The notes under the pieces were generated by a model. That model saw nothing but the letters and a program-made list of their open reading frames with translations, was not told where the DNA came from and did not search any database. The position numbers and the translations under genes are program-made. 22,658 nucleotides of DNA from a virus, in the IMG/VR virus record IMGVR_UViG_3300018481_000078, positions 1-22,658 of that record, one strand, 5' to 3'. This document shows, in pieces, positions 3,286 to 18,752 of this stretch (positions are counted from its first letter, which is position 1; each line of letters begins with the position of its first letter).

Positions 3286-4346
3286 CAGACTCCTTCCAGC
3301 GCCCCGACCCGCTCGGTCAGCTCCTGAACCTGTTTCAGGATGATCGTGACGAACTTGGCATAGTCGAGCATCCAGAACTCCTCGGGGTCGGCGGGGATGT
3401 TGAGCGGCTCGTCGTAGACCTCTTGGACCTCCTGGGCGATCAGGCCGATGCTCCTTGACTGATCCTCCCGCCACACGAAGGTGCGAGGCCGCAACCCCAT
3501 CACCTTCTCGTTGGCCTCCTCGGGGGAGAGGTCGGCAATCTGGTCCTTGAGGCGCTCATCGGACTGGCTTCCATACGTGACCCCGGAGGTGCTGACGGAG
3601 ATGGTTCCCTTCTGGACCCCATCGAGTCGGAAGTCGAGTGCCCCACCAGGAGTGTTGCGCCCAAAGATCCCCGCCTGCCCATCGGCGGCGACCGCCACCA
3701 TCCGGTTCTGGGCCCGGCTCATCCCAATCTGGGGAACGTCGTAGTTGGCGACGTCGAGCGAGAAGCTGGCCGTCCCGAAGCTCCCCGCAGGGTCGAACTC
3801 CCAATGGAGGGCGTTGGCGAAGGCAAGCCCAATGGCCCCGCCGGTCGGGTTGCGGAAGAACCCGGCATCCTGAACCCCGAATTGGAGCGAAGGCACCGAA
3901 GCCTGTCCGTTGGGAAGTCGGATCTCTCCCGCCAGCAGCTGCTCGGAGGCGTTGTTCTTGTAGAGGATGGTGTTGGGGAGATTGGCGCTCTCGATCACCC
4001 CCTTCAGCTTGTTCGACGCCCCGGATACCGGGACCGAATCGTTGAGGAGCTTGGCCCCGTCGATCCCGCTCTGGATTTGGCTGTTGCCGTGGGAGTGGGC
4101 CGGAGGGATGAGGGGGTTGACCGACTTCCAAGCCGCCGGAGGTGTGGCGTCGTATATCTCAATCACCTTCGTGTCGAGCCGGTAGATCACCTGACCCTGG
4201 ATCGGAGCCGTGATCGCAGCGTTGCGAGCCGTGGCGTTGGCGAAGCGGGGGATCGGCCCGGAGTCGATGAACTGCTGGAAGGCGAGCGGCGCGTCGGACG
4301 AGTCGGTGTAGTCCGGCACGGCCAGACCCTTGTAGAGCGAACTCAC
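3285..4346 (-). CDS. Fibre / decoration protein with C-terminal peptidase S74 intramolecular chaperone
   Basis: A 353-residue protein. Residues from about 260 form a peptidase S74 (endosialidase-type) chaperone domain: SDERLKD at 262-268, then 'LRPRTFVW', 'IGLIAQEVQEVYDE', and a terminal coiled-coil helix (KQVQELTERVGALEG). In this family the domain trimerises the fibre and then cuts itself off before the Ser of the SDxRLK motif; Ser262 and Lys267 are present. The N-terminal part carries repeats of Asn/Gly-rich beta sequence. The GTG start at 4346 has GGAGG 7 bases upstream and overlaps the preceding stop (GTGA). Its place among head-tail connector genes, rather than after the tape measure, is unusual and suggests a head or neck fibre. 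Confidence 0.85.
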   Translation of the reverse strand: MSSLYKGLAVPDYTDSSDAPLAFQQFIDSGPIPRFANATARNAAITAPIQGQVIYRLDTKVIEIYDATPPAAWKSVNPLIPPAHSHGNSQIQSGIDGAKLLNDSVPVSGASNKLKGVIESANLPNTILYKNNASEQLLAGEIRLPNGQASVPSLQFGVQDAGFFRNPTGGAIGLAFANALHWEFDPAGSFGTASFSLDVANYDVPQIGMSRAQNRMVAVAADGQAGIFGRNTPGGALDFRLDGVQKGTISVSTSGVTYGSQSDERLKDQIADLSPEEANEKVMGLRPRTFVWREDQSRSIGLIAQEVQEVYDEPLNIPADPEEFWMLDYAKFVTIILKQVQELTERVGALEGV

Positions 4347-6383: not shown

Positions 6384-6667
6384 TTCGCGAGCCTCCTACG
6401 ACATAGAGGGACAATTCTCTCGACCGCCGCAAGGGCTCGCATCGTGAAGTGATCGCATCTGAGGCCCGATACCGTCGCAGGGACACCGATCGAAGGCCGG
6501 ATCGCTCCTGAGAGGGGAAGATAGCCTATTTCGGACCCGGTAGAGCGACGAAACACGTTCTAAGGCCCCTCACGCCCTCTCTAACGAAGATTCCGAACTC
6601 TCCGCACCCGAGGTTAAGTGATCGAGGAAACATCGGCCTACGGGCCTGTGGCCCTGGGCATGTAGCC
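6384..6667 (-). other. 284-base gap upstream of the major capsid gene
   Basis: No credible gene lies here; short open frames lack an SD. Directly after the preceding stop (6668) is a hairpin at 6635-6667: GGGCC-TGT-GGCCC inside an imperfect GGCCTAC/GTAGCC stem. A 12-base element appears twice with one mismatch, at 6444-6455 (GTGAAGTGATCG) and 6613-6624 (GTTAAGTGATCG). A dedicated capsid promoter would be expected here by analogy with other phages, but I see no convincing -35/-10 pair on the minus strand. Confidence 0.5.
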
Positions 6668-6904
6668 CTAAAGTTCCCTCTCGACCCCTCGGACGATGGT
6701 TACGACCGTTGGCCCGGCCACGAAAAGTACCGGAACTTCGTCGCCCCACGCTTCAAGGACCGCTGCCTTCGCTGCGTCGATGAACTCTTGGGAAGGATTC
6801 TCCCCGAGATGGAAGGCGACCACGTCCCCCGGCTCCAGGACAATCGCCTGGAGCAATGCCTCGGCTGCGGTCACTGCCCTCCGCCGATCGCCCTCCGCAA
6901 CCAT
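6668..6904 (-). CDS. Small conserved-looking protein between scaffold and capsid genes
   Basis: A 78-residue protein with an alpha/beta pattern: a helix 'RRRAVTAAEALLQAIV', then 'PGDVVAFHLGENPSQEFIDAAKAAVLEAWGDEVPVLFVAGPTVVTIVRG'. The ATG at 6904 lies inside the end of the scaffold gene (34-base overlap) and has AAGGAGG about 10 bases upstream. Other siphoviruses carry a small unknown in this slot. No function recognised. Confidence 0.65.
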   Translation of the reverse strand: MVAEGDRRRAVTAAEALLQAIVLEPGDVVAFHLGENPSQEFIDAAKAAVLEAWGDEVPVLFVAGPTVVTIVRGVEREL

Positions 6905-8216: not shown

Positions 8217-9657
8217 CGTTCACGCCAGGGGGCGCCCCGCCGGTCTGAGAAGTGGGGGGGATTCCAGGGGAACTCAATCCGGGGGGCGCCTGTCCCACTA
8301 TCGCACCTTGCATCAGCTTTTGGAACACATCAGCGGCGCGTTGTCCTTCCATCCGAGCAATCTCCTCAGGCGTGAAGCCGATGAACTCCATGATCGTCTC
8401 CCACGGCACCCCGACCGCTTGCATCTTGGAGGCAGCGTCCATCGTCTGGGAATCGGAGCGGGTCCGGGGATCTTTCCACAGGGCGTTGAGAGTGGCGAGG
8501 GAATCCTCGGGAGCTTCCACCTCCGCCACCTTCATCACCAGCCGGGCTACCGACTCCCACGAGTCGCCGTACCCCACCTGGCGTTCGCCGATCTTGTTGA
8601 TAAGGCCTGTCTCTGACGCTTCGAGGGAGGCTGCGGAGGGCGGGTTGGCGAGGTCGGTCTGGACGAAATACGTCGGAGGGATGCGTGAGACGGCGGATAG
8701 CTGACCGATGGCATCGGATATCGCTTTCAGGTAGGGGGTGATGTCGGTGGCGGGGAAGGCCCCGAACTTTGTGTCGGGGTCCTCTGATATCCATAGACGA
8801 TCGAGGGCCACCTTGAACGGCTCCACCTCGTTGCCGTCCGGGTCGGTCGGTATCTCCAGCCCCGAGGCCCACTTTTGGCGAAGGGCCCCGAGTTCAACCG
8901 CCAGGAGCGTGTTCGAGGTCAGGTACTCGATGCGGCCGATGATCTCGGCAATGTCCCGGAGGTCGGAGCGCCCGTAGCCCCGGTAGTCGGGCCGGGTCAC
9001 GAACGGGACCATCGGGACGATGTCGTAGGAGTGGCCCACCTCCGAGATGGGTAGCCACCCACCCCGCATGGCGAACGCCTCCGAGTACATGTCGATGGTG
9101 GCTATCTCCGAGGTCGTGACCTGGGTGGCGAAGCGGACGACCCGATCCGGGAAGTAGAGGTTGGCCCGGGCCTCCCCCGAGGCAGTGTCTAGCCAAACCT
9201 TCAGGGCGGCGGCGACTGTCTGTGGATCCCCGGATTGGTTTTCGTGAGTGGTGTTGAGGGAGGACTCGGCCCGGATCTTGGGCTGGGAAGGGTCGTCGGC
9301 CGCAGGCCACACCGACACGTAGCTCGTCCCGGTGGTGACGGCCTCCCGGTGGACGACCGACTGCATCGCCTCCATCTGATTGCGCCGGAACAACTCCCAC
9401 AGCAGGTCGTTCGGGTCGTCCTCGCCGAACTGGAACCCCTGGACCTTGAGTCGCTCCTCGGTCAGATCCACCACCAGCCGCGCCCAGGGCGTCCGGCTCA
9501 TCATCAGGATTCGCTCGTAAGCCGCCCGGTATTGCGGGACCGGGTCGCGCCGGGGCTGGGTCGAGTCGTAGAGGGCGTTCCAGGTTCGACGCAGCAGCAC
9601 GTCGTATTGCCATTGGCGAAGCAGCCGGGACAGCCACTCAGTATCAGACAGGGCCAT
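8209..9657 (-). CDS. Portal protein (SPP1 gp6-like)
   Basis: A 482-residue protein, the usual length for this family. The portal is the dodecameric ring at one capsid vertex through which DNA is packed. Visible family features: 'YDSTQPRRDPVPQYRAAYERILMMSRTPWARLVVDLTEERLKVQGF' in the N-terminal region, 'RNQMEAMQSVVHREAVTTGTSYVSVW', 'IPMVPF'-like 'DIVPMVPFVTRPDYRGYGRSDLRDIAEIIGRIEYL', and 'ISRIPPTYF'-like 'VSRIPPTYFVQTDLANPPSAASLEASETGLINKI' in the C-terminal helical region. A Pro/Gly-rich tail ends the protein. The ATG at 9657 has AAGGTGGG about 8 bases upstream. Confidence 0.93.
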   Translation of the reverse strand: MALSDTEWLSRLLRQWQYDVLLRRTWNALYDSTQPRRDPVPQYRAAYERILMMSRTPWARLVVDLTEERLKVQGFQFGEDDPNDLLWELFRRNQMEAMQSVVHREAVTTGTSYVSVWPAADDPSQPKIRAESSLNTTHENQSGDPQTVAAALKVWLDTASGEARANLYFPDRVVRFATQVTTSEIATIDMYSEAFAMRGGWLPISEVGHSYDIVPMVPFVTRPDYRGYGRSDLRDIAEIIGRIEYLTSNTLLAVELGALRQKWASGLEIPTDPDGNEVEPFKVALDRLWISEDPDTKFGAFPATDITPYLKAISDAIGQLSAVSRIPPTYFVQTDLANPPSAASLEASETGLINKIGERQVGYGDSWESVARLVMKVAEVEAPEDSLATLNALWKDPRTRSDSQTMDAASKMQAVGVPWETIMEFIGFTPEEIARMEGQRAADVFQKLMQGAIVGQAPPGLSSPGIPPTSQTGGAPPGVNGG

Positions 9658-9671
9658 AGAAGTTTCCCACC

Positions 9672-9992
9672 TTATCGAATGCGCTGGATGCGGGCGGTTT
9701 CAGCAGCGTGACAGTCCGAGCACAGCCACTCCAAGTTCTCCATCGTCGTCGCCCCTCCCGCCGACCGGGGGATCTTGTGGTTGGCCTCTTTGCCAACTCC
9801 GCCGCACCGCTCGCACCGCCCCTTTGCCCGCCGGATCACCTTGCGCCGTATCCGGTCGTACTCCTTGCGTGGGACGTCGAGGTTGGCCCGCCAGTTCGAC
9901 CCCTCCCACGGAGCCGGCACATGTGCAGGGCAGAAGCTCTCCCCCCGCTCCACCAGCTCGGGGCAGCCAACAGTGCGACACGGCTTCAGCAT
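9672..9992 (-). CDS. HNH endonuclease beside terminase
   Basis: A 106-residue protein with a small N-terminal Cys/His cluster ('CRTVGCPELVERGESFCPAH') and a C-terminal HNH domain: 'RCERCGGVGKEANHKIPRSAGGATTMENLEWLCSDCHAAETA', with CxxC pairs for zinc, the His of 'NHKIP' and the 'CHxxxT' end. The ATG at 9992 shares TGATG with the large terminase stop, so the two are translationally coupled. In HK97-like phages an HNH protein encoded next to the terminase stimulates cos cleavage and packaging, so a packaging role is more likely than homing. Confidence 0.9.
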   Translation of the reverse strand: MLKPCRTVGCPELVERGESFCPAHVPAPWEGSNWRANLDVPRKEYDRIRRKVIRRAKGRCERCGGVGKEANHKIPRSAGGATTMENLEWLCSDCHAAETARIQRIR

Positions 9993-12416: not shown

Positions 12417-12440
12417 GCAGCCCAGCGCCGCCGGGCGCCA

Positions 12441-12684
12441 CTGCCAAGGGCCCAATGACACCTACTGCCAGGTGCCAGTGGGTGCGTGTGTCAGTGCCAG
12501 TGAGCAGGCTTCCTCTTCTTCCCCAGTGCCAGTGCCACCGCTTCCCCGGTACGTGATGTCAGTGGCATGGTGGTGGGCTGGTGTCAGGTGACATGCCAAG
12601 TGTCACCCCTCCCCAGTGGTGCCAGTGCCACCATGCTCAGTGATGTCACTGCCACTCAGAGTGGGTGTCAGCTGGTGCGTGTCA
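12441..12684. repeat. Iteron-like array of GTGYCA hexamers
   Basis: Eleven perfect GTG(T/C)CA copies lie on the plus strand at 12472, 12488, 12494, 12526, 12532, 12581, 12600, 12619, 12625, 12665 and 12679, with near matches at 12441, 12465, 12556, 12562, 12588, 12643 and 12649 and one inverted copy at 12456. Five pairs are head-to-tail without a gap (12488, 12526, 12556, 12619, 12643), giving a 12-base unit close to RTGYCAGTGCCA. No open frame with a start signal covers it. Iteron arrays of this kind bind replication initiators, partition proteins or phage repressors; which applies here cannot be told. Confidence 0.7.
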
Positions 12685-12690
12685 GCGCTA

Positions 12691-12803
12691 GGGCTTCCTG
12701 ATCCTGGCAGAGTGAGGGCTTCCTCGTGCATGACAGAGCGCGGGCTTCCTGATCTGCCTACCAGCGGGAGGGTTTCCTCGCATTGCCGATCGAGCGTTTC
12801 CTC
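12691..12803. repeat. Degenerate ~26-bp tandem repeat starting GGGYTTCCT
   Basis: Copies begin at 12691, 12716, 12742 and 12770, with a weaker one near 12794 (GTTTCCT); spacings are 25, 26, 28 and about 24. Each unit has GGG(C/T)TTCCT, then about 10 variable bases and often a CAG(A/C)G end. An outlying AGGCTTCCTC lies at 12506-12515 inside the hexamer array. The array touches the hexamer iterons, so both may belong to one protein-binding region. Confidence 0.6.
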
Positions 12804-12838
12804 TTTCGCTGTTACTGCCCAGAGAACACCGCGAAAAT

Positions 12839-12912
12839 CCCCCTAAAGATACCACCGGAAACTTACCCTAAGTTACCTGTCACCGACTAGACTTAGGGGG
12901 TCGTCCCGACCC
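12839..12912. other. Nested inverted repeats at the edge of the control region
   Basis: CCCCCTAA (12839-12846) and TTAGGGGG (12893-12900) are perfect inverted copies. Between them AACTTA-CCC-TAAGTT (12860-12874) is a perfect small palindrome, and GGGTCG-TCC-CGACCC (12898-12912) overlaps the right arm. The segment is relatively AT-rich for this genome. It could be an operator, an origin unwinding site, an attachment core or the 5' end of the structured RNA that follows. No convincing promoter pair is visible on either strand, although TAGACT at 12888-12893 could serve as a -10. Confidence 0.5.
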
Positions 12913-12932
12913 ACTCAGTTGGTCCTCAAGAA

Positions 12933-13415
12933 GGGGGCGATCCGAGCCCACTGCGAACATCTTCCCGGTAGGCAAGCGGAGTACCGGCGTCGTCGCCTGG
13001 ATAGCGCCCCCAGAGGGGGCAGGAAAGCCAGAATCAGCGAGGGCGAGGGACAGACGACGGTTATGGAGGCAGGAACCTGCGAGGCCCCACCTCCCCGTCC
13101 GACACCCCGAACCGGCCCGATCGGGACCATCTCAGATCGAGAAGACGTGAGGTGTCCAGGTAAGCGGACTCGGTGCGTAGTTGCAGAGCTTCAGACGCGC
13201 CTTCGGGCCATGTAAGCCGGTAACTCCCCCTCCTTGCGAGGGGGATACCTCGTTCAGGCCATCGAGAGAAATAAGCCCTGGATGCCGCTTTCGAGCAAAC
13301 CATCGAGACTCAAATCTCGGGTGGGGCATCAGATTCCGATTGTGGATTAAGTGAAAGCTGAAGAAGCGAAGCGCCGGAACCCCCCGTTGTAGGACAGGAA
13401 GCGAGAGGGGTCCGG
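12933..13415 (+). ncRNA. Candidate large structured RNA (gene-free, dense helices)
   Basis: No reading frame here has a start signal or protein-like composition. Helices found by eye: GGGGGCG+ATCC (12933-12943) with GGAT+CGCCCCC (12999-13011); GACGG/GGAGG/GCAG stacked arms closing on GAAC (13056-13099); CCCGATCGGG (13116-13125); CATCTCA/TGAGGTG (13128-13154); GCC-TTCG-GGC (13199-13208); GGTA plus CCCCCTC-loop-GAGGGGG plus TACC (13219-13249); a gapless three-way junction (13281-13330); CCGGA+CCCC with GGGG+TCCGG (13374-13415). Two UUCG-type tetraloops, readable only on this strand, favour rightward transcription. It may be a stand-alone RNA or the long 5' leader of the gene at 13600. I cannot match it to a named RNA class; the ends are approximate. 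Confidence 0.6.
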
Positions 13416-13439
13416 GCAGGTGAGAGACAGGTTCTACCA

Positions 13440-13599
13440 ACAACTACCTCCTCCTTGTAAGCGGCGCCCTTTCGGGGGCGCTGCGTACAGGGCATCGGTG
13501 TGAATCTCTCATGGATTCCCTCCTACCGGTGCCTTGTACGCAGCGAAGCTCGCTGCCGTTTCCCACCGGGGAAGCGAAACACAAGGAGGTATTGCACCT
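13440..13599 (+). promoter_or_regulatory. Structured leader of the first rightward gene, with an SD-complementary segment
   Basis: In order: CCTCCTTGT at 13450-13458, complementary over 9 bases to ACAAGGAGG at 13581-13589 (the gene's SD); a nine-pair hairpin at 13461-13484 (GCGCCC/GGGCGC core); an 18-pair stem, 13482-13499 with 13525-13542, containing an inner GAATC/GATTC stem; a perfect seven-pair hairpin GCAGCGA-AGC-TCGCTGC at 13540-13556; a TTCCC/GGGAA hairpin at 13558-13580; then ACAAGGAGGTA and the ATG at 13600. Some helices exclude each other, so alternative folds that hide or free the SD are possible. No ligand-binding class is recognised. Confidence 0.65.
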
Positions 13600-14067
13600 A
13601 TGAGTGCGATCCACTACATGGCCAGGAACGCCAAGTTCCGGCTCACCCCCAACCGCGCCATCAACGCGGCCGCAGAGATCAAGATGATTCTGCTGGCCAC
13701 CGGAGCGGACGGGCTGGGTACGTCGATCATCAACCAGCTGGAGACCACGGTCGCCTGGCTGGAGGGCGACGTCGCCACCCAGATCCAGAGGGTGATGGAC
13801 GAGAACAAGGCTGCCGCAGCCTCGACGAAGAAGGCCGTTGCGTGGCCCTCGGTCGACGAGGTCAAGGCCCTCACCGCTGCTCAGCTCCTCGAGCTGGCTG
13901 GCGTTCTCAAGGTGGACTTCGACGGCGTGAAGTCGAGCAAGGCTGCTCGTCTGGCCGCCATCGAGGCCGCCCGTCCGGTCGAGGTCAAGGCCACTCCTGC
14001 GAAGGAGACCAAGACCGAGGCCACTCCTGCGAAGGAGACCAAGTCGAAGGCGACCAAGGCTGCATAG
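13600..14067 (+). CDS. Early protein: paralogous N-domain, SAP/HeH-like motif, Lys/Ala-rich tail
   Basis: A 155-residue protein. Residues 1-75 are paralogous to the leftward protein at 12081-12317 (MSAIHYMA, RAINAAAEI, VAWLEGD). Residues ~82-125 ('PSVDEVKALTAAQLLELAGVLKVDFDGVKSSKAARLAAIEA') fit a SAP/HeH-like nucleic-acid-binding helical motif. Residues 128-155 are Lys/Ala/Thr/Glu-rich with a tandem ATPAKETK repeat, like histone H1-type tails; the repeat is near-exact in DNA (13990-14041). The ATG at 13600 is fixed by ACAAGGAGGTA 9 bases upstream; a TTG at 13534 has no SD and lies in a hairpin. It is probably a DNA- or RNA-binding early protein, inferred from composition. Confidence 0.85.
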   Translation: MSAIHYMARNAKFRLTPNRAINAAAEIKMILLATGADGLGTSIINQLETTVAWLEGDVATQIQRVMDENKAAAASTKKAVAWPSVDEVKALTAAQLLELAGVLKVDFDGVKSSKAARLAAIEAARPVEVKATPAKETKTEATPAKETKSKATKAA

Positions 14068-14166
14068 CGCTGGATGACTGCGCATCTCCCCTCATTCGTG
14101 AGGGGAGTTTGGAGTCATCGGCTCCCACCCAGGTTCTCCCTGGGTGCTCTCTACAAGGAGGTATCC
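14068..14166 (+). promoter_or_regulatory. Leader module A: TTCG hairpin, second hairpin, SD
   Basis: Hairpin 1 at 14086-14107 has nine pairs (CTCCCCTCA/TGAGGGGAG) around TTCG, enclosed by an outer GATGACT/AGTCATC stem (14073-14079 with 14113-14119). Hairpin 2 at 14126-14146 is CACCCAG/CTGGGTG. ACAAGGAGGTA follows at 14153-14163. There is no U-run, so it is not a typical terminator. It is closely similar in plan to the module before 14920. Confidence 0.75.
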
Positions 14167-14597: not shown

Positions 14598-14827
14598 ACG
14601 TGACCGATCCCTCCCGCACCCAGGAAGGCACCCCAGTCACGATTGGCCTTCGGGTCATCGACTACGACTGGAAGTGGGGGAATGTCGAGTCCGGCCCCGA
14701 TAGCGGTGGCTGGTACGACGTTCGCCTTGACGACGGGCGCCGTTCCTACATGGACGGCACCCGGCTCTCCACAGGGCAGATCGCTTCCCGGATGGGAGCG
14801 CCTGCCGACCCAATGAAAGAAGGTTGA
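14594..14827 (+). CDS. Small protein with KOW/SH3-like beta pattern
   Basis: A 77-residue protein. Its central part, 'VIDYDWKWGNVESGPDSGGWYDVRLDDGRRSYMDGTRLS', reads as a small beta-barrel (conversion of a 'W..G.V......WYdVr.DDG....dG.RL' pattern) common in actinophage early regions. The ATG overlaps the previous stop (ATGA), so translation is coupled. No function known. Confidence 0.75.
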   Translation: MNVTDPSRTQEGTPVTIGLRVIDYDWKWGNVESGPDSGGWYDVRLDDGRRSYMDGTRLSTGQIASRMGAPADPMKEG

Positions 14828-14919
14828 GCGCTGCGACGGCCTCTCATTCGTGAGAGGCCCACGGAGCACTCGCTCCCTGGTGGGTTTCTCCCACCGGCTC
14901 TCTACAAGGAGGTATCGAA
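14828..14919 (+). promoter_or_regulatory. Leader module B: TTCG hairpin, GGTG...CACC hairpin, SD
   Basis: Hairpin 1 at 14838-14859 has nine pairs (GGCCTCTCA/TGAGAGGCC) around TTCG, with flanking GAGCG/CGCTC. Hairpin 2 at 14879-14895 is GGTGGG-TTTCT-CCCACC. The sequence GCTCTCTACAAGGAGGTATC that follows is shared with module A. Both stems differ from module A by compensating changes. Confidence 0.75.
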
Positions 14920-15195
14920 ATGGATGAGCGACGCGAGAGGTCACCCCTCATTGGGTTGGCCCAGCCGTTTTCGCCCACCAAGCCCTCGGAGACGCAGATG
15001 CAGGTCGGGCAGATGCTCGATCAGATGCTGCTCAACGAGGCAAGCCTGGTTCGTCTGCGTGACGTCCAGGCGGAGAACAGTGCTCGTGAGTTTCCTCGTG
15101 AATCCCTCGGGCATCGGACCTGGATCGCAATCGGGCGCCTGGAAGTCCAGCAGGACTCCCTGCGGCGCAAGATCCTGCTCTCGGTCAAAGGCTGA
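14920..15195 (+). CDS. Small helical early protein
   Basis: A 91-residue, charged, mostly helical protein: 'MQVGQMLDQMLLNEASLVRLRDVQAENSAREFPRESLGHRTWIAIGRLEVQQDSLRRKIL'. Arg/Glu/Gln-rich amphipathic helices suggest a helical bundle. The start at 14920 follows ACAAGGAGGTA by 5 bases. Its stop overlaps the next start (TGATG), linking it to the small membrane protein. No family recognised. Confidence 0.8.
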   Translation: MDERRERSPLIGLAQPFSPTKPSETQMQVGQMLDQMLLNEASLVRLRDVQAENSAREFPRESLGHRTWIAIGRLEVQQDSLRRKILLSVKG

Positions 15196-15341
15196 TGTGG
15201 CCTTTGATCGTGCTCAGTTGGGCGGTCTGGCTAGTCATCTTCCTCGGTTCGATCAACGACCGGGATCGCGAGCATGGGATTCCGTATCCGGTGCTCGCCT
15301 TCTGGTTCGTGATGAACCTGGTGCTGACTGGCGGTGTGTGA
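15195..15341 (+). CDS. 48-residue protein with two membrane segments
   Basis: The ATG at 15195 overlaps the preceding stop (TGATG). Residues ~3-19 (PLIVLSWAVWLVIFLGS) and ~31-46 (YPVLAFWFVMNLVLTG) are hydrophobic, separated by a charged loop (INDRDREHGIP), giving a helical hairpin in the membrane. It could be a holin-like, superinfection or anti-host membrane peptide; no lysin is nearby, so function is open. The stop codon TGA (15339-15341) forms part of stem II of the hammerhead ribozyme that follows, so translation to the end would disrupt the ribozyme. Confidence 0.7.
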   Translation: MWPLIVLSWAVWLVIFLGSINDRDREHGIPYPVLAFWFVMNLVLTGGV

Positions 15342-15399
15342 CGAAACACCCCTTCGGGGGTGTCGGCGATGGGGTGGCTCCCCACGCCCTGATGAGTCA
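15339..15399 (+). ncRNA. Type II hammerhead ribozyme
   Basis: All core elements are present in type II order. Stem II 3' strand TGAC (15339-15342); GAAA (15343-15346); stem III CACCCC-TTCG-GGGGTG (15347-15362), closed by A15346-T15363; cleavage triplet G-T-C with C17 at 15364; stem I GGCG...CGCC (15365-15388) extended by TGGGG/CCCCA around a TGGCT loop with a bulged A; CTGATGA (15389-15395); stem II 5' strand GTCA (15396-15399), which pairs with TGAC. Cleavage is expected after 15364. Further bases (GTG 15336-15338 with CAC 15403-15405) could extend stem II across a bulge, where loop contacts with stem I would form. It separates the membrane-protein gene from the terminator. Confidence 0.9.
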
Positions 15400-15410
15400 A
15401 GCCACTGAGG

Positions 15411-15476
15411 AAAGGAGGGGTTGGTCGGCCAGGGGTAGAGAGCTTGGCCGGCCAGCCCCTTTGGGTCTTTTCATTT
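15411..15476 (+). terminator. Intrinsic terminator after the ribozyme
   Basis: A long stem (GGGG-T-TGG-T-CGGCC-AG with CT-T-GGCCG-G-CCA-G-CCCC, about 15 pairs counting G-U) with a short purine-rich loop is followed by TTTGGGTCTTTTCATTTA. It is the only plus-strand hairpin in the window with a clear U-rich tail, and marks the end of the 13600-15341 gene cluster. Confidence 0.8.
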
Positions 15477-18616: not shown

Positions 18617-18752
18617 AGATTTCCGGGGGTAGGAGTTCAACCCCTTGCGCTCCTACCCCTGGGAAACCTAGTTGAAAGTTCCTAGCATTGGGCGCATGAG
18701 TGTGCGCTCAATGGTGGGAATTACCCACCGGCCTACCACAAGGAGGTAGAAC
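18617..18752 (+). promoter_or_regulatory. Leader module F, three hairpins and SD hairpin
   Basis: Hairpin 1: TTTCC plus GGGGTAGGAG with CTCCTACCCC plus GGGAAA (18620-18666), about 15 pairs. A middle hairpin: CATTG-G-GCGCA with TGCGC-T-CAATG (18686-18713). Hairpin 2: GGTGGG-AATTA-CCCACC (18713-18729). Then CTACC-ACAAGGA-GGTAG (18733-18749), with the SD core in the loop; ATG at 18753. There is no U-run after hairpin 1. Confidence 0.75.

Follow-up and report, generated by a model that had tools for sequence, protein, structure and literature searches.

A predicted type II hammerhead ribozyme before a terminator-like hairpin in an uncultured virus genome, and related arrays in R4-type Streptomyces phages

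Type II hammerhead ribozymes of bacteria and phages are represented by the Rfam family RF02276 (Perreault et al. 2011, PMC3088659) and combine the hammerhead core with a short, open stem II, loop-closed stems I and III, a pseudoknot between loop I and the 3' tail that is critical for speed, and an intergenic site in phage genomes. In prophages of Azorhizobium, Agrobacterium and Clostridium scindens they form clusters between phage genes, for which cutting of long phage transcripts into shorter mRNAs has already been proposed (PMC3088659). Arrays of the phage type cleave in vitro and in vivo, and in a halovirus a transcript 5' end was mapped no more than 3 nt from the cut site (PMC3088659). The haloviruses HF1 and HF2 carry a variant, HHphage, beside an early polycistronic unit (PMC3088659). 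An engineered counterpart is RiboJ, a hammerhead from plant satellite RNA followed by a hairpin and placed ahead of a gene, which in Escherichia coli raises the transcript about 2-fold and the protein two- to tenfold (PMC6206723). The class, its phage association, the prophage arrays and the mRNA-processing idea are therefore not new (PMC3088659), as the sequence-only reading of the locus studied here had rightly said of the class, and the role of bacterial and phage hammerheads has been described as an open question (PMC6155905).

Here we analyse a stretch of 22,658 nt (the window) from an uncultured bacterial virus genome (IMG/VR record IMGVR_UViG_3300018481_000078). Its hammerhead shares the features listed above for RF02276 and does not differ from that family as a ribozyme; a bulged A15369 and a directly following terminator-like hairpin are peculiar to the window locus and its relative. 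Whereas the prophage ribozymes are clustered, the window has one copy, at an operon end and before the terminator-like hairpin. The arrays that we describe in R4-type Streptomyces phages are denser than the prophage clusters, at 8-14 per genome; they are conserved from genus to genus and remain at gene borders even where the neighbouring genes have been swapped. HHphage has insertions near C3 and leads its operon, whereas the core of the window element follows the consensus and the element lies at an operon end. With RiboJ the window locus shares a hammerhead of the self-cutting class that has a hairpin behind it at the border of a message, and the R4-type arrays likewise lie upstream of ribosome-binding sites; RiboJ, however, acts at a message's 5' end, and the window element would instead make a 3' end. 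New are thus another type II member in a variant setting, with the hairpin immediately behind it, and the R4-group arrays, which deserve follow-up; no report of hammerheads in Streptomyces phages was found in the literature searched, most subscription papers lying outside its reach.

Identity and anatomy of the window element

By sequence and predicted fold, the element at 15339-15406 (+) is a genuine type II hammerhead, a ribozyme of the self-cleaving class. It matches the Rfam model RF02276 (Hammerhead_II) over exactly this interval and strand with 39.0 bits (gathering cut-off 37, E 7.6e-5), and the Rfam scan of the whole 22.7-kb window gave no real match to any other RNA. Since this score lies just 2 bits above the cut-off, we built an independent covariance model (R1) on 25 hammerheads taken from other phages, leaving out the window and its relative. 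R1 gave the element 54.3 bits, with E-values of 3e-12 and 1.6e-11 in searches of 54 kb and 286 kb, respectively, and found no further hammerhead in the window, where its next match was at chance level (E about 1). A loose structural descriptor hit a single site in the window, the hammerhead, and just one site in total across 300 dinucleotide shuffles of the whole window. A chance hammerhead-like fold in a GC-rich intergenic stretch is highly improbable: the narrow Rfam margin would fit such an origin, but the R1 value from the larger search, the rarity of descriptor sites in shuffles and the covariation with the relative contradict it.

At minimum energy, 15335-15405 folds as the hammerhead, with stems I and III closed by loops and stem II open-ended, as also in the covariance alignment. 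The invariant core is present as CTGATGA, GAAA and U16.1-C17, in line with the requirement for CUGANGA ... GAAA ... UH. The sequence-only reading had named a type II hammerhead with every conserved core base and three paired stems and had proposed a covariance search with the Rfam hammerhead models; both covariance scores bear out the identity, and sequence, fold and covariance alignment agree on the bases and stems. It had overlooked the pseudoknot between loop I and the 3' tail, 5 bp of exact TGGCT/AGCCA complementarity, a tertiary feature that natural type II hammerheads typically have. The features of the locus are as follows.

15195-15341 (+), gene for a predicted two-helix membrane protein of 48 aa (ORF list)
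15339-15406 (+), whole predicted type II hammerhead (Rfam, R1, fold)
15339-15342 (+), stem II 5' strand TGAC, partner 15396-15399 (sequence, R1 alignment, fold)
15343-15346 (+), core GAAA (G12 A13 A14 A15.1), invariant in alignment A1
15346-15363 (+), stem III hairpin, 15346-15352 with 15357-15363, 7 bp including A15.1-U16.1, closed by C(UUCG)G (sequence, fold)
15364-15365 (+), predicted cleavage site, C17 (H17, 15364) / G1.1 (15365), from the hammerhead consensus position
15365-15388 (+), stem I hairpin, 9 bp (4 + 5; 15365-15368 with 15385-15388 and 15370-15374 with 15380-15384), bulged A15369, loop TGGCT (sequence, fold)
15375-15379 (+), loop I TGGCT, first pseudoknot partner, complementary to 15400-15404
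15389-15395 (+), second core strand CTGATGA (C3-A9) (sequence)
15396-15399 (+), stem II 3' strand GTCA (sequence, R1 alignment, fold)
15400-15404 (+), 3' tail AGCCA, second pseudoknot partner (sequence, relative)
15411-15418 (+), Shine-Dalgarno-like AAAGGAGG with no gene behind it, overlapping the base of the next hairpin (sequence)
15415-15461 (+), strong terminator-like hairpin, -38.3 kcal/mol, followed by TGGGTCTTTTCA (fold; pairing kept in the relative)

Relatives were sought with the 48-aa, 91-aa, portal and terminase proteins, and one contig bearing the locus was found (IMGVR_UViG_3300045996_001029, 48 kb), which aligns with most of the window, the nucleotide identity being 77-89% (about 84%). 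The portal search additionally gave a 4.7-kb fragment whose span lies outside the ribozyme locus, and no relatives of the portal protein in bacterial genomes. In the relative, stems II and III are identical to those of the window, stem I has changed from TGGGG/CCCCA to CCGGG/CCCGG by two compensatory pairs, and the pseudoknot is kept except that one T-A pair has become a T-G wobble. The core reads CTGAATGA where the window has CTGATGA, with an extra A after A6. A natural hammerhead with an insertion after A6 had low activity in vitro (PMC3088659). The compensatory stem changes together with an insertion of this low-activity type suggest that the structure may be under selection at the locus while full-speed cleavage is perhaps not maintained in both genomes, unless the extra A is an assembly error; ribozyme activity may be dispensable or tuned. 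Relatives keeping neither core nor stems had been named beforehand as evidence against the ribozyme, and half of this applies: in the sole close relative the stems are kept and the core carries an insertion. Each contig has a single hammerhead (one in 22.7 kb and one in 48 kb), and neither shows the clustering of phage arrays.

The 48-aa protein upstream is 98% identical in amino acids between the two genomes and the DNA changes are mostly synonymous, a pattern by which the ORF is under purifying selection. Its TGA stop (15339-15341) lies inside stem II, as had been read from the sequence. When the last 20 nt of the gene are folded along, the last codons form pairs with the 3' strand of stem II, beating stem II itself by ~4 kcal/mol in nearest-neighbour folding with the pseudoknot left out; in the relative this competing pairing has a far smaller lead of 0 to 1.3 kcal/mol (nearest-neighbour folding). 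Ribosomes finishing the gene had been proposed to compete with folding. Ribosomes at the stop would indeed cover stem II, but unoccupied last codons would themselves outcompete it, so that in this folding model ribosomes could either help or hinder the hammerhead.

Downstream, the predicted cut (15364/15365) falls before the hairpin at 15415, hence between message and hairpin as proposed. The claim that an intrinsic terminator follows holds for the strong hairpin, whose pairing is maintained in the relative by G-U/A-U exchanges, but less so for the rest: its U-tract is interrupted (TGGGTCTTTTCA) and it is absent from the list of a consensus terminator scan.

Hammerheads at gene borders of Streptomyces phages

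A blastn search with 81 bases found the element between genes in many Streptomyces phages; the matching Microbacterium phage Kelcole has no hammerhead. Whole-record searches identified 8-14 hammerheads per genome in 19 R4-type phages, most of them members of the subfamily Arquatrovirinae, counts that give no prevalence figure since the genomes were picked for matching, as well as two in Halorubrum virus VOLN27B and none in 14 control genomes. With R1, the 19 phage arms yielded 195 type II hammerheads, which without exception lie on the coding strand and at junctions of small genes. In Amela (Camvirus) and phiHau3 (Hautrevirus), both of the same subfamily, R1 detected no hammerhead, nor did it in SV1 and phiC31; the absence from the former two indicates that the device is not essential to the subfamily.

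The structure is conserved by covariation. In an unfitted MAFFT alignment of 30 hammerheads (A1), 16 of 20 pairs vary in both partners, and the paired cells amount to 88%, compared with 67% after shuffling and 36-48% when slid; in the model-fitted alignment A3 (150 rows), 97.8% are paired. Among 161 parsed copies, H17 is C in 148, U in 9 and A in 4. A pseudoknot of at least 5 bp is found in 72 of the 161 homologues, compared with 26 of 161 with shuffled tails.

Several observations concern individual copies. A contiguous stem II is lacking from 49 of the 161 parsed copies as scored, and those inspected (e.g. L178 3986-4050 and L179 4482-4548) carry a single additional base after A9, before stem II (CTGATGA-T-GGC); it resembles an extra core residue known from a viroid hammerhead. 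In five phages one hammerhead directly follows another, at a distance of 1-2 nt, at a single junction (L184 8787-8919, L185 12029-12164, L192 11867-11998, L181 13500-13634 and L183 8073-8201), where double cutting would free a ribozyme-sized fragment. In phage R4 (NC_019414.1, L180), whose record names S. coelicolor A3(2) as host and which has nine predicted cut sites, the annotated small ORFs gp60.1, gp67.1 and gp75.1 overlie hammerheads (4263-4346, 6626-6718 and 9574-9675), and for gp72, gp76 and gp81 the 5' end as annotated includes one; gene calls or start sites of R4-type phages are probably wrong at such overlaps. The two hammerheads of VOLN27B (65063-65129 and 66938-67005; L195 3064-3130 and 4939-5006, minus strand) lie on either side of an ATP-dependent DNA helicase gene and have cores altered near C3, like the halovirus HHphage variant (PMC3088659).

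The usual phage order is stop, hammerhead, Shine-Dalgarno sequence (SD), start. For the 195 R4-group hammerheads, an upstream ORF stop is nearby in 179, an SD with a start codon follows within 40 nt in 170, and both are present in 156; among the 179 with a stop, 52 lie 1-7 nt from it and 8 overlap it. A second set comprised at least 92 hammerheads on IMG/VR contigs fetched by core pattern, of which, among the matches listed, 84 were scorable: the stop abuts the ribozyme in 43 and overlaps it in 23. With 66 of 84 abutting or overlapping, a stop codon in or beside stem II is the norm, and the view that the overlap with the stop codon makes the window setting special is not borne out. In the R4-type phages, three gene families have a hammerhead upstream in 18 of 19, 18 of 18 and 15 of 15 copies while facing 9, 5 and 5 different upstream families, respectively, and two families have one downstream in 18 of 19 copies each. 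The hammerhead stays while the neighbouring gene is swapped, and so belongs to the gene border rather than to one gene.

What is unusual in the window is the strong terminator-like hairpin in the place of a downstream gene. At the position equivalent to the window AAAGGAGG, other phages have a true SD and a start codon. Among the matches listed for the 92 IMG/VR hammerheads, at most one weak case besides the window has a terminator-like hairpin right after the ribozyme; given this rarity, the punctuation role suggested for the arrays may not apply at the window. The window locus is ordinary and well formed, but it led to culturable phages that infect laboratory strains of Streptomyces and have about ten copies each at defined junctions, which makes the question of their role directly testable.

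Possible roles of the window locus

The reading we favour, and consider probable, is that, in a tailed phage of actinobacteria known only from uncultured material, a functional-looking hammerhead ends an operon of early type, where a co-transcriptional cut would leave a hairpin-capped 3' end. Hammerhead cleavage yields a 2',3'-cyclic phosphate and a 5'-OH. Co-transcriptional self-cleavage at 15364/15365 would sever the message from the downstream hairpin. Because in the type II topology the cut lies between two closed hairpins (III and I), the upstream mRNA would keep its stop codon, and its last nucleotide, bearing a cyclic phosphate, would lie flush with stem III and its UUCG cap, contrary to the earlier proposal that cleavage exposes a new 3' end. 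An end closed in this way would be expected to resist tailing and 3' exonucleases. The downstream piece freed by the cut would be about 105 nt long, with a 5'-OH, stem I and the terminator-like hairpin. Structured 3' ends become targets of exonucleases in E. coli once they receive short A-tails, and Streptomyces tails RNA with a PNPase orthologue (PMC3997798). For the locus itself, we infer cleavage in vivo, protection of the end and a benefit to the phage.

In the R4-type arrays, cuts would divide long transcripts into individual messages that carry a hairpin at either end, the downstream product retaining the SD. More tentatively, type II hammerheads may serve as a general punctuation of phage operons, in the order stop-hammerhead-SD-start, with hairpins at both ends of each message, persistence at the border and 8-14 copies per R4-type genome; the window would then be an end-of-operon form in which a ribozyme-made 3' end replaces that of the terminator.

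It is rather unlikely that the element instead sheds the terminator hairpin so as to destabilise the upstream operon, with ribosomes at the TGA delaying the cut and tying the lifetime of the message to translation. The stop codon within stem II fits this idea, as do the last codons, whose ability to pair with the stem II 3' strand means that ribosome traffic could alter folding. However, the new 3' end would be a flush UUCG-capped hairpin with nothing unpaired, hammerheads abutting a stop are frequent where no terminator follows, and the competing pairing is far weaker in the relative. We regard as unlikely that the locus is a decaying relic, a junction ribozyme that lost its downstream gene and left an SD-like stretch before the terminator. 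The AAAGGAGG stretch with no gene behind it, the core insertion in the relative and the single hammerhead in both contigs, compared with 8-14 in R4-type phages, would all suit decay, but core, stems and pseudoknot are intact in the window and the stem I changes between genomes about 16% apart are compensatory rather than free.

A further alternative takes the 3' fragment of roughly 105 nt (15365 to about 15470) as the product of interest, a small RNA with a ribozyme-cut 5' end and a terminated 3' end. Strong hairpins at both ends of the fragment, the retained pairing of the second one and a retained, exposed AAAGGAGG-like stretch are consistent with it. It is nevertheless distinctly unlikely: the single-stranded linker is just moderately conserved in the relative, no target is known, and after the ribozyme other phages carry a gene instead.

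Other noncoding stretches

The window contains further intergenic structures. A multi-hairpin leader at 14822-14920, ending in CTCTCTACAAGGAGGTA, has 2 mismatches in 99 nt to the relative (the genomes are about 84% identical), and leader-like stretches precede other window genes (14069-14163 and 18705-18748), possibly a shared regulatory leader. The two-hairpin leaders at 14069-14163 and 14828-14914 were considered as hammerheads and rejected, as they have no CTGANGA core. Between the divergent arms, about 1.2 kb (12430-13600) is without convincing genes and had no Rfam match in the scan of the window; it contains CAGTGCCAGTG-type repeats and several hairpins.

In Streptomyces phage Omar (NC_054662.1, 48633-48750; L179 11134-11251, minus strand), a noncoding stretch matches bacterial 16S rRNA (RF00177, 68.4 bits, model positions 106-311). 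It corresponds to a shortened 16S 5'-domain with GAGTAACACGT ... GGTGAGGTAACGGCTCACCAAGGCGACGA and is perhaps a 16S-mimic RNA. A weaker copy is present in Streptomyces phage Stella (OP751154.1, 45531-45641).
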